From Melioribacter sp. (lineage in GTDB: Bacteria; Bacteroidota; Ignavibacteria; Ignavibacteriales; Melioribacteraceae), in assembly GCA_012026935.1 (NCBI GenBank), contig VEPI01000084.1, positions 1 through 41,765 on the forward strand: a stretch of DNA of 41,765 nt. Reading direction: 5' to 3'. A program made the position numbers and the translations under genes. Shown one piece after another: positions 21,165 to 41,765 of this stretch; position 1 is the first letter of the stretch; the number at the start of each line of letters is the position of its first letter. The notes under the pieces were generated by a model. It saw nothing but the letters and a program-made list of their open reading frames with translations. It did no database searches and was not told the DNA's origin.

Positions 21165-21746
21165 TTAACTAACTTTGTCTAACGGCTTACGCAAATTATG
21201 GGTTTTCAATTTGAATTGACTGGCGGTAAAACCTGTTACTTTCTTGAATTGATTTGAAAGATGCTGAACACTGCTATAACCTAAGTTATAAGCTATTTCG
21301 CTTAAAGTATATTCGCCATACTTAATAAGTTCTTTTGCACGTTCAATTTTTTGTAGAATAATATATTGTTCAATTGTAACGCTTTCTAAAGAAGAAAAAA
21401 GACTGCTCAGATAGTTATAGTCCAGTCCCAGTTCTTTTTCGATAAGTATAGAAATTTTTTTTGGTTCATTAATCAGATAGTTGCTATCATAAATAATTTT
21501 AATAATAAAATTTTTTATTTTCTCTATAGTTTTTGCTTTCTTGTCTTCAATAAGTTCAAATCCGTTCTCTTCCAAGATCAATTTTATTTTATTGATAGGT
21601 AAATCTTTGATTGGTGATTCGGTAATTACCTCACCCAGGGAAATTTTTTTAGTCTTAACGCCGATTTTTTCGAATTCTTCTTTTACAACCCGGATACAAC
21701 GGTTGCAAACCATATTTTTTATATATAAAGAATTTTGCGTTTGCAT
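21165..21746 (-). CDS. AraC-type regulator with heavy-metal-like N-terminus
   Basis: This 193-residue protein combines two parts. Residues about 7-65 begin YIKNMVCNRC (C14, C17) and resemble a shortened HMA fold, with the paired cysteines where Cu(I) chaperones bind metal. Residues about 90-185 form an AraC double helix-turn-helix, with LSEIAYNLGYSSVQHLSNQFKKVTGF as its second unit (split here by position only). Similar proteins are common beside copper genes in Bacteroidota. It probably senses copper directly and controls the copZ-copA genes 120 bases downstream on the same strand. The metal and the direction of control are inferred. Confidence 0.83.
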   Translation of the reverse strand: MQTQNSLYIKNMVCNRCIRVVKEEFEKIGVKTKKISLGEVITESPIKDLPINKIKLILEENGFELIEDKKAKTIEKIKNFIIKIIYDSNYLINEPKKISILIEKELGLDYNYLSSLFSSLESVTIEQYIILQKIERAKELIKYGEYTLSEIAYNLGYSSVQHLSNQFKKVTGFTASQFKLKTHNLRKPLDKVS

Positions 21747-37403: not shown

Positions 37404-38180
37404 ATGACTAAGACTATAAAAATATTAAGCACGCTCTTTTTAATTCTGGCTATTGGATTGATTATCTATCTATCGGTTGGATTGAAAAACGAGGTTGACT
37501 ATAAAATAAGTTTGATCTCTCTTGATGGGAATATTCATTTATCAAAAGAACAGTATTTAAGCTATGCAAATCTGCTTGATAAGAATAATTATGATAAGCT
37601 GACACTTCAAATCATAAAAGATAGGATTGAAAAACATCCTTACGTTCAACAAGCAGAGGTACGTTACGACGGCAACAGTAAGGTTTCAGTAAAAATAATC
37701 GAAAAAACATTTGACTCAATATTAGTAGACAGTACAAACCAATATATAATTACGGAAAGTCTTCAAATACTTCCGGTATTTCCGCAGACTAAGAAAATTG
37801 ATTACCCGATCATTTCAAATCCGCTTCTTGGAAACGGAATGAAAATTTTATCTTCACTAAAAAATATTAACGACATCGTATTAGCATCGAAAATTATAAC
37901 TACGGTAAAATTATTAAATCCGGAGTTGTACGATGGCTTATCTTCAATTGATTTGCAAAACGGAAACGATGTTGTTCTCTATTTCTCAAGTATGAATTAT
38001 CCGGTAATAATTGGAAGGGGAAACGAAATTAGAAAAATAATCTACTTCAATAATTTCTGGACTTATTTGAAGGGAAAAGAAATAAATAATTACATGGAGT
38101 ATGTGGATTTGCGTTACGGCGGACACGTATATCTAGGAATTACAGAACAGAATAGCCAGGAGGGTCAAAATAAATCATGA
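37404..38180 (+). CDS. ftsQ: FtsQ/DivIB-like division protein
   Basis: This 258-residue bitopic protein has a span at about residues 7-26 (ILSTLFLILAIGLIIYLSVG). A POTRA-like domain follows: KISLISLDGNIHLSKEQYLS, then RIEKHPYVQQAEVRYDGNSKVSVKIIEK. A beta domain to about residue 250 corresponds to the FtsQ region. FtsQ links the cytoplasmic and periplasmic division proteins with FtsL and FtsB. Sequence similarity is low, as is normal for FtsQ, but the POTRA pattern and position next to ftsA support it. No murB or ddl intervenes. It overlaps ftsA by four bases. Confidence 0.88.
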   Translation: MTKTIKILSTLFLILAIGLIIYLSVGLKNEVDYKISLISLDGNIHLSKEQYLSYANLLDKNNYDKLTLQIIKDRIEKHPYVQQAEVRYDGNSKVSVKIIEKTFDSILVDSTNQYIITESLQILPVFPQTKKIDYPIISNPLLGNGMKILSSLKNINDIVLASKIITTVKLLNPELYDGLSSIDLQNGNDVVLYFSSMNYPVIIGRGNEIRKIIYFNNFWTYLKGKEINNYMEYVDLRYGGHVYLGITEQNSQEGQNKS

Positions 38181-39421
38181 AAAAAAATGTAATAGCAGGA
38201 CTTGATCTTGGAACAACAAAAGTTTGTGCGGTAATAGCGGAACAGGTTGAGAATAATCTTAACATTCTCGGATTTGGCGTAGCTCCTTCCGAAGGATTGA
38301 ATCGCGGATTGGTTGCTAATATTTCTAAAACTGCTGATGCGATTAATGAAGCAATGCATATTGCTTCCAATAGAGCAGGTCTAACAGTTAAAGAATTAAA
38401 TGTTGGAGTTGCAGGCGAGCACATAACTAGTTTACGTCACAGAAATTATGTAACGATAAATAATCCTGAACGGGAAATAACAGAGCAGGATTTGGATCGC
38501 TTGAGAGCCGATGTTCAGACTATTAGAATTCCTTCCGACCGCCAGATACTTCACATCATTCCCGAAGAATATTCAGTTGATTATCAAGGTGGAATTGATG
38601 ACCCGATCGGTATGTGTGGTTCACGCTTGGAAGCTGTGAATCATGTAGTTCTTGCTTCGATACCTGCAATTCAAAACATAAAAAAATCTGTTGAGCGTGC
38701 GGGATTTATGGTTAAAGATTATGTGCTTCAACCTATTGCGTCAAGTTTTGCTGTGCTTGATGAAAACGAAAAAGATTTAGGTGTGTTGTTGATTGATATC
38801 GGCGGCGGAACAACTGATATAGCTGTCTTTCACCGTAAAGCAATTAAACACACAAAAGTAATTGGAGTTGCAGGTAATCAGGTTACAAACGATGTGCGCG
38901 AGACTTTAGGAATTGTAACTGCCGATGCGGAAAAACTTAAAAAAGAATACGGCTACGCTACCGAACATGCGATCATTAAAGATGAAGATATTTTTATTAA
39001 AGGTGTTGGCGGAAGAGGAAACGTAAAAATTCCTTTATCACTGCTTACACAAATAATCAGTGTCCGGATGAAAGAATTATTTGCACTTATTGATAATGAA
39101 CTGCGTCAAGCCGGATTCAAAAATAAAATTAAGGCAGGGGTAGTACTAACCGGCGGAGGATCATTACTAAAAGGTTGTACGGAATTAGCCGAAGAAGTTT
39201 TTGGAATGCCTGCTAGAATCGGTGTTCCTCTTGATCTTGGTTCAGGTTTATCGAACGAAGTTGAAAGTCCTGAGTTCGCAACGGTTGCAGGATTAATTAG
39301 AGGTATACCGGGAAAATCATCTTCAGAACAATTTACAACAGTAAAAGCAAGTGGCTCAGAACATAAATTCAATGTGAGCAAATTATTCAAAAGATTACAA
39401 GAATTTTTTGATAAACTATAA
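38177..39421 (+). CDS. ftsA: FtsA actin-like division protein
   Basis: This 414-residue protein tethers FtsZ filaments to the membrane. The phosphate-1 loop is AGLDLGTTKVCAVI, the phosphate-2 region is LLIDIGGGTTDIAVF, and the adenosine region is VVLTGGGSLLKGC. The SHS2-like 1C domain lies between residues about 80 and 160. The C-terminus, KLFKRLQEFFDKL, is an amphipathic helix of the kind that binds the membrane. It overlaps ftsQ by four bases (ATGA) and precedes ftsZ by 23 bases. Confidence 0.95.
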   Translation: MKKNVIAGLDLGTTKVCAVIAEQVENNLNILGFGVAPSEGLNRGLVANISKTADAINEAMHIASNRAGLTVKELNVGVAGEHITSLRHRNYVTINNPEREITEQDLDRLRADVQTIRIPSDRQILHIIPEEYSVDYQGGIDDPIGMCGSRLEAVNHVVLASIPAIQNIKKSVERAGFMVKDYVLQPIASSFAVLDENEKDLGVLLIDIGGGTTDIAVFHRKAIKHTKVIGVAGNQVTNDVRETLGIVTADAEKLKKEYGYATEHAIIKDEDIFIKGVGGRGNVKIPLSLLTQIISVRMKELFALIDNELRQAGFKNKIKAGVVLTGGGSLLKGCTELAEEVFGMPARIGVPLDLGSGLSNEVESPEFATVAGLIRGIPGKSSSEQFTTVKASGSEHKFNVSKLFKRLQEFFDKL

Positions 39422-39444
39422 AAATACCACAACAAGGAGGAGTT

Positions 39445-40734
39445 ATGTCCACAATGGAAAAGAGACCCCGTTTCTTCACTCTTGAAACACAAAGACCGAT
39501 GTCTGCACAATTAAAAGTAGTTGGTGTAGGCGGAGGAGGTTGCAACGCAATTGACAGTATGATTGAACGCGGATTATCCGGCGTTGAATTCATTGCTGTA
39601 AATACAGACGCTCAAGTTCTCGAAGAGAGTTTGGCTACTCACAAAATTCAAATCGGGACAAATGTAACACGCGGACTTGGAGCAGGCGCAGATCCTAACG
39701 TAGGAAGAAAAGCAGCTGAAGAAGATCGCGATAAGATTACCCGTATGCTTGAAGGAAGCGATATGGTTTTTGTGACATCGGGAATGGGCGGCGGAACCGG
39801 AACAGGGGCAGCTCCGATTGTTGCATCTATTGCTAAAAGTCTTGGCGCACTCGTCATCGGAATTGTTACTAAACCTTTCACATGGGAAGGTAAACAACGC
39901 ATGAAAAATGCAGATGAAGGAATTACAGAACTGCGTCAATTGGTAGATAGTCTGATTGTAGTACCGAACAGCAGAATACTAAGTATTATTGATACAGCTA
40001 CGGCAGCAAAAGCTGCATTCAACAAACCAAATGAAATTCTATTTGAAGCAACCCGCGGTATAGCTGATATAATTACCGTTAAAGGAATTATCAATGTTGA
40101 CTTCGCAGATGTAAGAACTGTTATGAGAGATAGCGGACAAGCATTAATGGGATGTGGAATTTCCAGCGGAGAAAATCGTTCTGTTGAGGCAGCACAAAAA
40201 GCGATTTCATCACCGCTGCTTGAGGGTGTTTCAATAAAAGGTGCAAAAAATATTCTTCTAAATGTTACCGGTCCTACAAATATGACGATGGCGGAAGTAG
40301 AAGCCGGAAATAATGTGATCTTTGAAGCTGCCGGAGAAGAAGCAAATGTAATCTTTGGAACTGTTATTAAAGATCAGATGAATGAATATGTCTCTTATAC
40401 AGTAATTGCAACCGGATTTGAAACTAAGGCGAGCTCAAATCCAATCAGCAATTTGAAAACGGAAAAAGCAGAAAGAAAACGTGAAGAGAAAAAAGTTGTA
40501 GGCATGGGCGGGTTCCCAACCAAACGCGGTGCAATAGAATTAGAAAACAGTGACGACCTGAATGTTCCTACAATCTTAAGAGTAAAGAAAACAAATCCTG
40601 ATTTGTTTGATCAAAGCGGATTGGAAACCGGATTTAAAGCTGAAAAAAATGATTATGAAGAGAACGATTATTACAGCAATAAGAATAGAGATGAAGAAGA
40701 CAGTTCATCATTCTTAAGAAAGATTATGGATTAA
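39445..40734 (+). CDS. ftsZ: FtsZ tubulin-like division GTPase
   Basis: This 429-residue GTPase forms the division ring. The GTP-binding core has VVGVGGGGCNAID, VNTDAQ, the tubulin signature GGGTGTGAAP and the T7-loop region NVDFADVRTVM. A strong AAGGAGGAG ribosome binding site precedes the ATG, while most genes of this cluster lack one, consistent with the high FtsZ demand. The usual C-terminal peptide motif appears as DDLNVPTILRVKK (370-382), but about 47 further acidic residues follow, ending SSSFLRKIMD. It shares a probable transcript with the 33-residue peptide downstream. Confidence 0.97.
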   Translation: MSTMEKRPRFFTLETQRPMSAQLKVVGVGGGGCNAIDSMIERGLSGVEFIAVNTDAQVLEESLATHKIQIGTNVTRGLGAGADPNVGRKAAEEDRDKITRMLEGSDMVFVTSGMGGGTGTGAAPIVASIAKSLGALVIGIVTKPFTWEGKQRMKNADEGITELRQLVDSLIVVPNSRILSIIDTATAAKAAFNKPNEILFEATRGIADIITVKGIINVDFADVRTVMRDSGQALMGCGISSGENRSVEAAQKAISSPLLEGVSIKGAKNILLNVTGPTNMTMAEVEAGNNVIFEAAGEEANVIFGTVIKDQMNEYVSYTVIATGFETKASSNPISNLKTEKAERKREEKKVVGMGGFPTKRGAIELENSDDLNVPTILRVKKTNPDLFDQSGLETGFKAEKNDYEENDYYSNKNRDEEDSSSFLRKIMD

Positions 40735-40773
40735 AGTTTTTCCTTTATAGTAACAACAAAATAAAGGAGTACT

Positions 40774-40875
40774 ATGAACGGACTAATATTATTAGGTGCA
40801 ATGCTTCTTTTTATAGCGCTCTTTACAACAAAGGCTATCAGGATTATTAAGTATTTAAAATCTGATAGCGAATAA
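40774..40875 (+). CDS. 33-residue single-span membrane peptide downstream of ftsZ
   Basis: An open frame starts 39 bases after ftsZ, behind AAAGGAG (40763-40769), one of the better ribosome binding sites here. It encodes a predicted membrane span (LILLGAMLLFIALFTTKAI) followed by a basic and polar tail, IRIIKYLKSDSE. The N-terminus is short and neutral (MNG), so N-out with a cytoplasmic tail is likely by the positive-inside rule. I know no named family. Its position suggests a role in division or envelope, but that is inference. A long hairpin follows. Confidence 0.65.
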   Translation: MNGLILLGAMLLFIALFTTKAIRIIKYLKSDSE

Positions 40876-40887
40876 TTCGGCATTATT

Positions 40888-40949
40888 AAAGGCCGTTATT
40901 GGTTTTCTCCTTGTTGTGGTGAACAGATATGAAAATCAATGCGGCCTTT
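40888..40949 (+). terminator. Long two-part hairpin closing the dcw cluster
   Basis: AAAGGCCG (40888-40895) pairs perfectly with CGGCCTTT (40942-40949). Inside it, ATTGGTTTTC (40898-40907) pairs with GAAAATCAAT (40931-40940), with at most one mismatch or wobble, leaving a 23-base loop. ATTTATT follows, a weak T-rich tail. It is the best candidate for the end of the dcw transcript, though it is larger than a standard terminator and could be an mRNA-stabilising element. Confidence 0.55.
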
Positions 40950-41040
40950 ATTTATTAATGTAAAGTTAGTGATTAATAATTTCCGTTTTGTTAATGGAAT
41001 TGCTAATTTTATCCACCAAAAAGACACACAAATTAATCCT

Positions 41041-41765
41041 ATGAAAAAATTATTATTCCTTATTTTGATGTTAATTTCACTTTGTACATCGTTTGCCCAA
41101 GAAGGTGAGGATGTAGGCTGGGTCGGAAGATTTGGCGCTGCAGGCGGGTTATCTCCAACTTTTGTTTTTCCAAATGTTGATGCAGTAAATACTCAAATAA
41201 AAATTATGGGTTTAGAAAATCTTTCCAGTAAAGGAATGATTGTTTACGGCGGCGGCGGCTATGCTTACATAATGCTTGTGGATAATTTAAGAATTGGCGG
41301 GATTGGATTAAGCGGAACCCAAACTTCAAGCGGCACTAACAATGGATTTAATAAAGAAGTAAAATATAATTATGGACTTGGTGGAGTAACTGTTGAGTAT
41401 TCTTTACCATTCATAAAAAATATTGCGGTTTCGGTTGGAGCTATTATAGGAGCCGGATCTTCCAGTATAGAGATTTTTCAGAATCAAAATAATTTTTCAT
41501 GGAACGGTATCTGGAATGAAGTTAATAATAAAACTACTCAGAACATTTACAGAAAAATTTCTAATTGTTTCTTAACAATATCTCCCACACTGAATGTTGA
41601 TATTCCGCTAAGCAGATTTATTGCAGTTAGAATCGGCGGTGGTTACATTACAACTTTTGCAAGCAGTTGGGAAGTTGATAATAATCAGGATATAGGAAGT
41701 GTTCCATCTGATTTAAGCAGCAATACATTTTTTATACAAACCGGTATTTACTTTGGATTAATAGC
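41041..41765 (+). CDS. Secreted, probably outer-membrane protein (3' end outside window)
   Basis: The frame is open from ATG 41041 to the window end, 241 codons so far. The signal peptide (KKLLFLILMLISLCTSFAQ) is clear. The mature part is rich in Gly, aromatic residues and short alternating strands (IVYGGGGYAYIML, GIYFGLI at the window end), as in small outer-membrane barrels or PorT-like proteins. No conserved family motif is recognised. There is no Shine-Dalgarno sequence, as is common in this group. It lies about 90 bases after the dcw hairpin and is probably a separate unit. Confidence 0.75.
   Translation, partial: MKKLLFLILMLISLCTSFAQEGEDVGWVGRFGAAGGLSPTFVFPNVDAVNTQIKIMGLENLSSKGMIVYGGGGYAYIMLVDNLRIGGIGLSGTQTSSGTNNGFNKEVKYNYGLGGVTVEYSLPFIKNIAVSVGAIIGAGSSSIEIFQNQNNFSWNGIWNEVNNKTTQNIYRKISNCFLTISPTLNVDIPLSRFIAVRIGGGYITTFASSWEVDNNQDIGSVPSDLSSNTFFIQTGIYFGLI

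Follow-up and report, generated by a model that had tools for sequence, protein, structure and literature searches.

A hairpin loop antisense to the ftsZ ribosome-binding region suggests a possible self-encoded RNA feedback on cell division in bacteria

The ftsZ locus and the peptide gene behind it

The window analysed here is the whole stretch of 41,765 nucleotides from Melioribacter sp. (assembly GCA_012026935.1, contig VEPI01000084.1). On its plus strand ftsA was located at 38177..39421 (open reading frame; Pfam FtsA at 2e-42 and SHS2_FTSA) and ftsZ at 39445..40734 (NCBIfam TIGR00065 at 4.4e-123; Pfam Tubulin and FtsZ_C), with the stop codon of the latter at 40732-40734. Upstream of ftsZ lie ftsA, an FtsQ-type gene and further genes of the dcw cluster. 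The FtsZ protein of one relative (G004) is 99% identical to that of the window.

The region behind ftsZ contains two features on the same strand. The first is a small open reading frame at 40774..40875 (ATG at 40774, TAA at 40873-40875), which encodes a 33-residue single-span membrane peptide, MNGLILLGAMLLFIALFTTKAIRIIKYLKSDSE, and is preceded by the Shine-Dalgarno (SD) sequence AAAGGAG at 40763..40769, four bases before the ATG. The second is a 3'-UTR hairpin at 40887..40950, starting eleven bases past the stop codon of the peptide and supported by its fold, by 58 related hairpins and by a covariance model. It folds with -31.2 kcal/mol (z -4.9; none of 200 shuffles was equally stable), has a U-rich tail at 40947-40957 (TTTATTTATT) and is probably the intrinsic terminator of ftsZ. 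The loop of the hairpin carries the sequence CTCCTTGTTGTGGT (40907..40920, plus strand), which is the exact reverse complement of ACCACAACAAGGAG at 39426..39439 on the same strand, and the two show compensatory changes in relatives. This target forms part of the ftsZ ribosome-binding region, comprising upstream bases and part of the SD, and the ftsA stop codon ends 4 nt upstream of it.

The exact 14-nt site has two copies only in the 3.18-Mb genome, one in the ribosome-binding region of ftsZ and one in the hairpin loop. A general anti-SD mimic was rejected as an explanation because the match runs on for 8 nt upstream of the SD and the genome has no further exact site. The same test on the other 29 genes of the window, with mechanical ORF starts taken as given, yielded complements of 6-12 nt, and both 12-nt cases were A-rich and of low complexity or near-palindromic. 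The Rfam scan of the region to E 10 gave four sub-threshold matches, none of them DicF and none at the strand and place of the hairpin; over the whole window at gathering scores it returned two tRNAs only. Rfam is without such a family.

The initial annotation had drawn attention to the peptide, as a possible small division or membrane regulator that probably shares the dcw transcript, and had overlooked the hairpin about 11 nt past it, which is conserved also in genomes that lack the peptide. Direct reading confirmed the small ORF at its claimed position with a clean start and stop and a strong SD. It was also correct that no terminator separates it from ftsZ: the terminator scan, which covers loops of 3-8 only and also overlooks the hairpin at 40887-40950, found none, and the first strong hairpin is the one past the ORF. 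The ORF therefore lies inside the presumed ftsZ 3' UTR and, since the terminator comes after it, most likely shares the ftsZ transcript. Loss of the reading frame in relatives had been named as refutation, and homologues were found at the same place in two genera.

Peptide homologues between ftsZ and the hairpin were detected in 10 of the 164 Ignavibacteriales genomes, namely in seven of 12 genomes of the window's genus g1 (G000, G001, G004-G008) and in three of four genomes of genus g12 (G022, G125, G126). No such ORF stands there in G002, G003, G009 and G010, four of the 11 g1 genomes with ftsZ; in G011 (g1) and G127 (g12) no ftsZ was found. An eleventh copy, also with the hairpin, occurs in G072 on a 3.5-kb contig (G072:C92, JAKAKL010000021.1; L094, L178). 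The genome is coded as family f3, and the contig is probably mis-binned because its FtsZ, 86% identical to that of the window, resembles genus g1.

The ratio pN/pS over all pairs of the 10 peptide sequences is 0.34 (window against L006: pS 0.65, pN 0.13), which indicates purifying selection; the ORF is therefore in all likelihood a translated gene. Small ORFs with an SD and a transmembrane span follow ftsZ in 19 of 102 loci, nine of them being the peptide of the window; 20 mononucleotide shuffles gave 1.05 on average. Searches with the peptide in Pfam, NCBIfam, PDB and plasmids found no match. Relatives with weaker scores (about 25-55 bits) occur elsewhere in G003, G010, G128, G005, G000, G009, G125, G001, G126 and G143 (fetched loci L231-L240, including L235 at G000:C84), in unrelated places with differing neighbours. 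The varied neighbours therefore suggest a small family of single-span peptides that is not tied to ftsZ. The gene after the relative in L233, L235, L238 and L239 appears by eye to encode a secreted repeat-like protein (..SDNEGLR.S.A...GE..), and the other neighbours, judged by eye without profiles, we take to be argS-like, recN-like and other genes. For the G000 relative (L235) a stop was reported inside the model match. The peptide as the main story was set aside, being too narrow (10 of 164 genomes) and having relatives elsewhere. What stands of the earlier reading is a conserved gene for a single-span peptide with a basic tail; the assignment as a division regulator specifically found no support in that form. 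We take the peptide gene to be a lineage-specific gene in its own right, which sits between ftsZ and the terminator.

In Ignavibacteriaceae-type loci, small single-span peptides of two further types were seen within 200 nt after ftsZ, again with SDs: one of 42 residues with LELFGIVFL or LELLGIVFL near the start (L038, L135, L138, L162) and one of 43 residues starting MMLL[IV]ILL.. (L029, L143).

Conservation and covariation of the loop and its target

The ftsZ loci of 57 relatives (56 matched; the match in G011 was spurious) were combined with the best 80 of 140 named loci, which resulted in 107 distinct ftsZ loci, 99 of them with both ends visible. Eight loci show one end only and are unpairable (L010, L067, L094, L099, L116, L127, L145, L151). 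The ribosome-binding window from -40 to +10 was compared with the 400 nt after ftsZ, and an exact complement of at least 11 nt was present in 57 of the 99 loci among those retrieved. The complements of L063/L064, L118 and L160, of 11-12 nt and other sequence, were set aside as chance (1, 0 and 1 of 60 shuffles as long). There remain 53 of 99 loci with an exact complement of 11-15 nt, to which L103 is added as the 54th; its best match is AT-rich, but the motif is present at +160. For the 53 loci, dinucleotide shuffles of the 3' side equalled the observed length in 0-2 of 60 cases. The other 45 loci, mostly of Ignavibacteriaceae type, reach 6-12 nt and are mostly shuffle-like. The 11-nt complement of L063 and L064 (G050 and G043, one genus of family f3), ACGGAGGTATT/AATACCTCCGT, joins the ftsZ ribosome-binding site to a position +20 past ftsZ (1 of 60 shuffles) and may be a separate case.

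The hairpin is conserved together with the match. The 54 loci and four with the 3' end only provided 58 hairpins, all of which fold, when the site is held unpaired, with a stem of 12-26 bp around it and a loop of 18-57 nt (median 26). In free folds of 53 the site is enclosed by 6-26 pairs, and part of it is often closed in a small inner hairpin. The hairpin consensus ends in a T-run, and the base of the stem covaries, with two-sided changes in four of seven consensus pairs. The predicted stem of L014, L015 and L017 starts no more than about 10 nt past the ftsZ stop, so that a promoter of its own, located outside ftsZ, would have little space. The antisense would most simply be the 3' end of the mRNA itself.

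Covariation between the loop and the ribosome-binding region was analysed over 13 pairs in 54 duplex rows (45 distinct). The share of paired cells is 96.8%, a value biased upward as the rows are anchored on matches; two-sided changes, the fairer measure, were found in eight of 13 pairs (seven core pairs out of 12, plus the outer one) and in 15 cells. The covariation score is 0.113. In none of 500 shuffles was any of these four measures as high, and a fifth, further pair types, was equalled in four of 500. Slid registers gave 39-64% paired cells and 0-4 two-sided pairs. Of the 45 distinct rows, 16 leave the outer pair open.

For the 12-nt core, ten added rows bring the total to 64, and among 768 cells 757 are Watson-Crick pairs, five are G-U and six are unpaired. 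The common 12-mer is present in 54 of the 64 rows and ten variants are each seen once (L016, L021, L023, L056, L058, L069, L120, L201, L213, L215). L213 holds its changed position through a G-U pair, as would be expected for RNA, and L215 also contributes to the G-U cells. L058 was rejected as a case of shared deletion, showing instead two compensatory substitutions plus one G-U. L069 has one internal mismatch, and in L120, L201, L202 and L204 one or two of the outer bases do not pair. The rows outside these pair counts are L211 (shifted), L218/L219 (8-9 nt) and L057, L101/L210 and L216 (no match). For the hairpin alignment A2, MAFFT was run without the 5' sites, on stretches chosen around the matches; alignment A5 is a hand-picked set of 22 of the 64 rows and is no independent test. 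The covariation and the shuffles led to rejection of a chance repeat, and selection on pairing between the loop and the ribosome-binding region is strongly supported by these sequence comparisons.

Distribution across the order and beyond

The covariance model R1 was built from the 58 hairpins and run on 164 genomes of the order Ignavibacteriales. The hairpin of the window scored 81.7 bits (1.2e-20), the window sequence being itself in the model; in general, the 58 sequences used to build R1 are among those it recovered. At E <= 0.001 matches were obtained in 122 of 164 genomes, many of them weak. At E <= 1.1e-6 (36.8 bits or more) they were confined to 61 of the 79 genomes in f1, the family of the window, all five of family f2 and one of the 80 other genomes of the order, which is G072 with its apparently mis-binned contig. 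Of these 80, those among the matches listed belong to family f3, and 22 are without a match. All 66 matches in f1 and f2 lie past ftsZ, within about 500 nt. The best match not beside ftsZ scored 36.0 bits (G027:C17) and lacks the motif, while the weakest ftsZ match counted scored 36.8 bits.

Direct reading added three f1 genomes (G019 at 31.7 bits, G159 and G160), which brings the genomes with the hairpin behind ftsZ to 69 of 84 in f1 and f2, that of the window (Melioribacteraceae) and its sister family; hairpin and match are kept in many genera without the peptide. From the model matches 35 loci were fetched, of which 27 share their hairpin with loci already used and eight are new, seven of these with the ftsZ 5' end. 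Altogether 31 of the 35 have the ftsZ 5' end, and all 31 carry a complement of 10-14 nt. Five further weak model matches (L205-L209) showed no such motif. In G017 (L018, L204) an insertion of roughly 500 nt follows ftsZ, and the hairpin stands about 500 nt behind the gene with the match still present.

Among the 15 remaining f1 and f2 genomes, ftsZ was not found in seven (G011, G029, G120, G127, G133, G155, G163) and is cut by the contig end in G025 and G132, one of which has the 5' motif and the other a one-base variant. No match was detected in G024, G136 and G145, where ftsZ is visible; the 5' motif is lost too in G024 and G136 and degraded to GCCACAATTAAGG in G145, the sequence of which is the same as L101. 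The element is dispensable, since these three and also G134, G161 and G162 are without the standard match. G134 (L211) has a shifted register, AAGGAGGAAAA with TTTTCCTCCTT, which covers the full SD; G161 (L219) has a 9-nt pair of other sequence and G162 (L218) a pair of about 8 nt. The pairs of L218 and L219 lie immediately ahead of a terminator-like hairpin and are too short to tell from chance. Re-invented pairings are possible in L211, L218 and L219.

Samples from the class (294 genomes) and the phylum (296 genomes), which share some genomes with the order set, gave no match outside f1 and f2 at E <= 1e-6. On an FtsZ tree of 113 rows (64 marked as paired) the trait needs six changes, compared to 37.3 with shuffled labels; the tree is a quick one with long-branch warnings, and genus g54 is placed apart.

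Proposed control of FtsZ synthesis and alternative readings

The reading which we consider probable is that the loop is a 3'-UTR anti-RBS element which pairs with the translation start of ftsZ itself and limits FtsZ synthesis. Both sites would lie on one transcript, as they are on the same strand, the predicted stem starts close behind the ftsZ stop in L014, L015 and L017, and no terminator was found between them in the window. The ftsZ transcript would end in the terminator hairpin, whose loop presents 11-15 nt of antisense to the ribosome-binding region. By the cis route the loop would pair on the same mRNA and close its 5' and 3' ends through a long-range pseudoknot; by the trans route the 3' end would be cut off as a small RNA and pair with another ftsZ mRNA. 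The pairing would occupy about positions -19 to -6, with the first half of the SD among them, and block 30S binding, so that FtsZ synthesis would be limited in proportion to ftsZ mRNA. The target starts a few nt past the ftsA stop, and because of this ribosomes finishing ftsA would clear it and could keep it open; the element could thereby set the FtsZ:FtsA ratio.

The binding energies were calculated for the two regions. For the duplex RNAduplex gave -27.7 kcal/mol, with opening cost not included; a generic anti-SD 15-mer that is not from this genome reached -11.2. The cofold of both regions gave -43.5 compared to -38.9 for the two apart (-7.7 and -31.2) and thus favours the duplex by about 4.6 kcal/mol, through opening of the stem and not through loop contact. 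In most rows the loop pairs poorly with the last part of the SD, with a mismatch and wobbles after AAGG; since this part is not cleanly paired, the block of the ribosome-binding site may be partial.

Pairing of a 3' UTR with the ribosome-binding site of its own mRNA is an already known class of mechanism, as indicated by the available portions of the published reports, to which the following comparisons are limited. In icaR of Staphylococcus aureus a 3'-UTR motif pairs with the ribosome-binding site of its own mRNA and represses translation, a complementarity like that at ftsZ. The icaR motif is a short UCCCC that is lacking in S. epidermidis, whereas the ftsZ element has 11-15 nt, sits in a terminator-hairpin loop and occurs in 69 of 84 genomes. 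OppZ and CarZ of Vibrio cholerae are RNAs of operon 3' ends which pair with their own transcript and inhibit translation. RNAs of this type are processed and stable and end in an intrinsic terminator; at ftsZ a predicted hairpin and a T-run are present. OppZ is cut by RNase E and relies on Hfq. Hfq (PF17209) was found in none of 39 relatives including the window's own genome, while five of 14 control genomes were positive. An RNA chaperone of another family may be present in the relatives.

At ftsZ itself, the portions of the reports available describe three RNAs. DicF, a small RNA of the E. coli Qin prophage, likewise pairs with the ftsZ ribosome-binding site and represses FtsZ, but it is prophage-borne, bound by Hfq and has several targets, whereas the present hairpin stands behind ftsZ and has one perfect target. 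DinR of Klebsiella, from the 3' end of dinI, is also a 3'-end RNA occupying the ftsZ ribosome-binding site; it differs in coming from an SOS gene, acting in trans with dependence on Hfq and pairing through a stretch in a Klebsiella-specific variable region. StfZ, a cis-antisense RNA of E. coli, shares antisense regulation of ftsZ, but it is transcribed from the ftsA-ftsZ region, whereas at the present locus the sense strand itself carries the antisense, some 1.5 kb further downstream. By analogy, repression is favoured as the effect of the pairing, because pairing at the ribosome-binding site represses ftsZ (DicF, DinR) and icaR in those accounts.

The main rival is stabilisation of the hbs type, in which the same pairing mainly protects the ftsZ mRNA by shielding the intergenic region from an endonuclease, sets its lifetime and raises or evens FtsZ output. 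As far as the accessible part of its description goes, hbs of Bacillus subtilis has a 14-nt pairing of 5' and 3' UTR within one mRNA, in likeness to the present case, which guards against RNase Y and stabilises the mRNA; that pairing is described as not conserved in close relatives. Protection fits all the sequence data equally well, and the target sits at the ftsA-ftsZ junction. It is nevertheless rated as unlikely, as the ribosome-binding site itself is covered, where the DicF and DinR pairings on ftsZ are described as repressive.

Somewhat less likely again is that the hairpin is cut out as a stable small RNA acting in trans also on other mRNAs, with ftsZ as one target. The terminator-hairpin architecture suits small RNAs derived from 3' UTRs, with OppZ and CarZ as precedent in the portions of the reports at hand, and one site with two mismatches (L079, G000:C68:26823-26836, ATTACAACAAGGAGGATTG) is a candidate ribosome-binding site with a TTG start and a possible second target. 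Against such wider action, ftsZ is the sole exact 14-nt site besides the loop, and sites with up to two mismatches number 18 compared to 25 for the backwards control. The two sites with one mismatch have no start codon 2-14 nt behind them; six of the 14 with two mismatches do, L079 alone with GGAGG. The failure to find Hfq in any of the 39 relatives also speaks against it.

An inverted pair of protein-binding sites, in DNA or RNA, would also make both sites change together, following the recognition of the protein. This is improbable given that the sites keep opposite orientation in 54 rows, one before the ftsZ ATG and the other in a predicted hairpin before a T-rich stretch, that ten different variants arose in single lineages, some kept through G-U, and that the exact site belongs to one gene only. 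That only the peptide is functional, with an ordinary terminator and a loop match due to chance or an inherited repeat, agrees with the purifying selection on the peptide and is very improbable, because hairpin and match persist with compensatory changes in many genera without it, complements at the other 29 window genes are no longer than 12 nt, and compensatory changes between loop and ribosome-binding site, which would tell against it, were found.

Returning to the anti-RBS element that limits FtsZ synthesis, a more specific form of it is put forward tentatively, namely an Hfq-free feedback throughout the clade, in which almost all ftsZ mRNAs of the two families would bear their own antisense in the terminator loop, working in cis by a long-range pseudoknot, reset by ribosomes leaving ftsA and setting the FtsZ:FtsA ratio. 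No report of such an ftsZ element was found in searches of open-licence papers. What is new is the gene (ftsZ), the place (a terminator loop), the lack of a recognisable Hfq and the depth of conservation; the last is counted as new because the icaR motif is missing in S. epidermidis and conservation of the hbs element does not extend to close relatives, according to the portions of those reports available. If the reading is true, the element would be the most deeply conserved bacterial 5'-3' mRNA closure among those compared here, as far as these portions describe them, and a lineage-specific small membrane protein would have been added under the same terminator. The amount of FtsZ influences whether bacteria divide and at what time, and the present case concerns the tuning of ftsZ outside model organisms by a candidate element that is visible in the sequence, offers natural compensatory mutations and can be tested with reporters. 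The case suggests that core genes can be under an old form of control by 3'-UTR anti-RBS elements, and gives a search rule for more cases, that is, the complement of a ribosome-binding site in the terminator loop of the same gene.

Other features were observed in the window. A secreted-looking protein without a Pfam match is encoded at 40939-41763, 3' of the hairpin, and a relative of it (..DVGW..RFG.A.G.., by eye) is found downstream of ftsZ in many loci of the family. The AraC-type regulator at 21165-21746 (minus strand) has the 12-nt near-palindrome CATTACACAATG at its start, and the complement of this sequence recurs 162 nt past the stop of the gene; the two are perhaps an operator pair.
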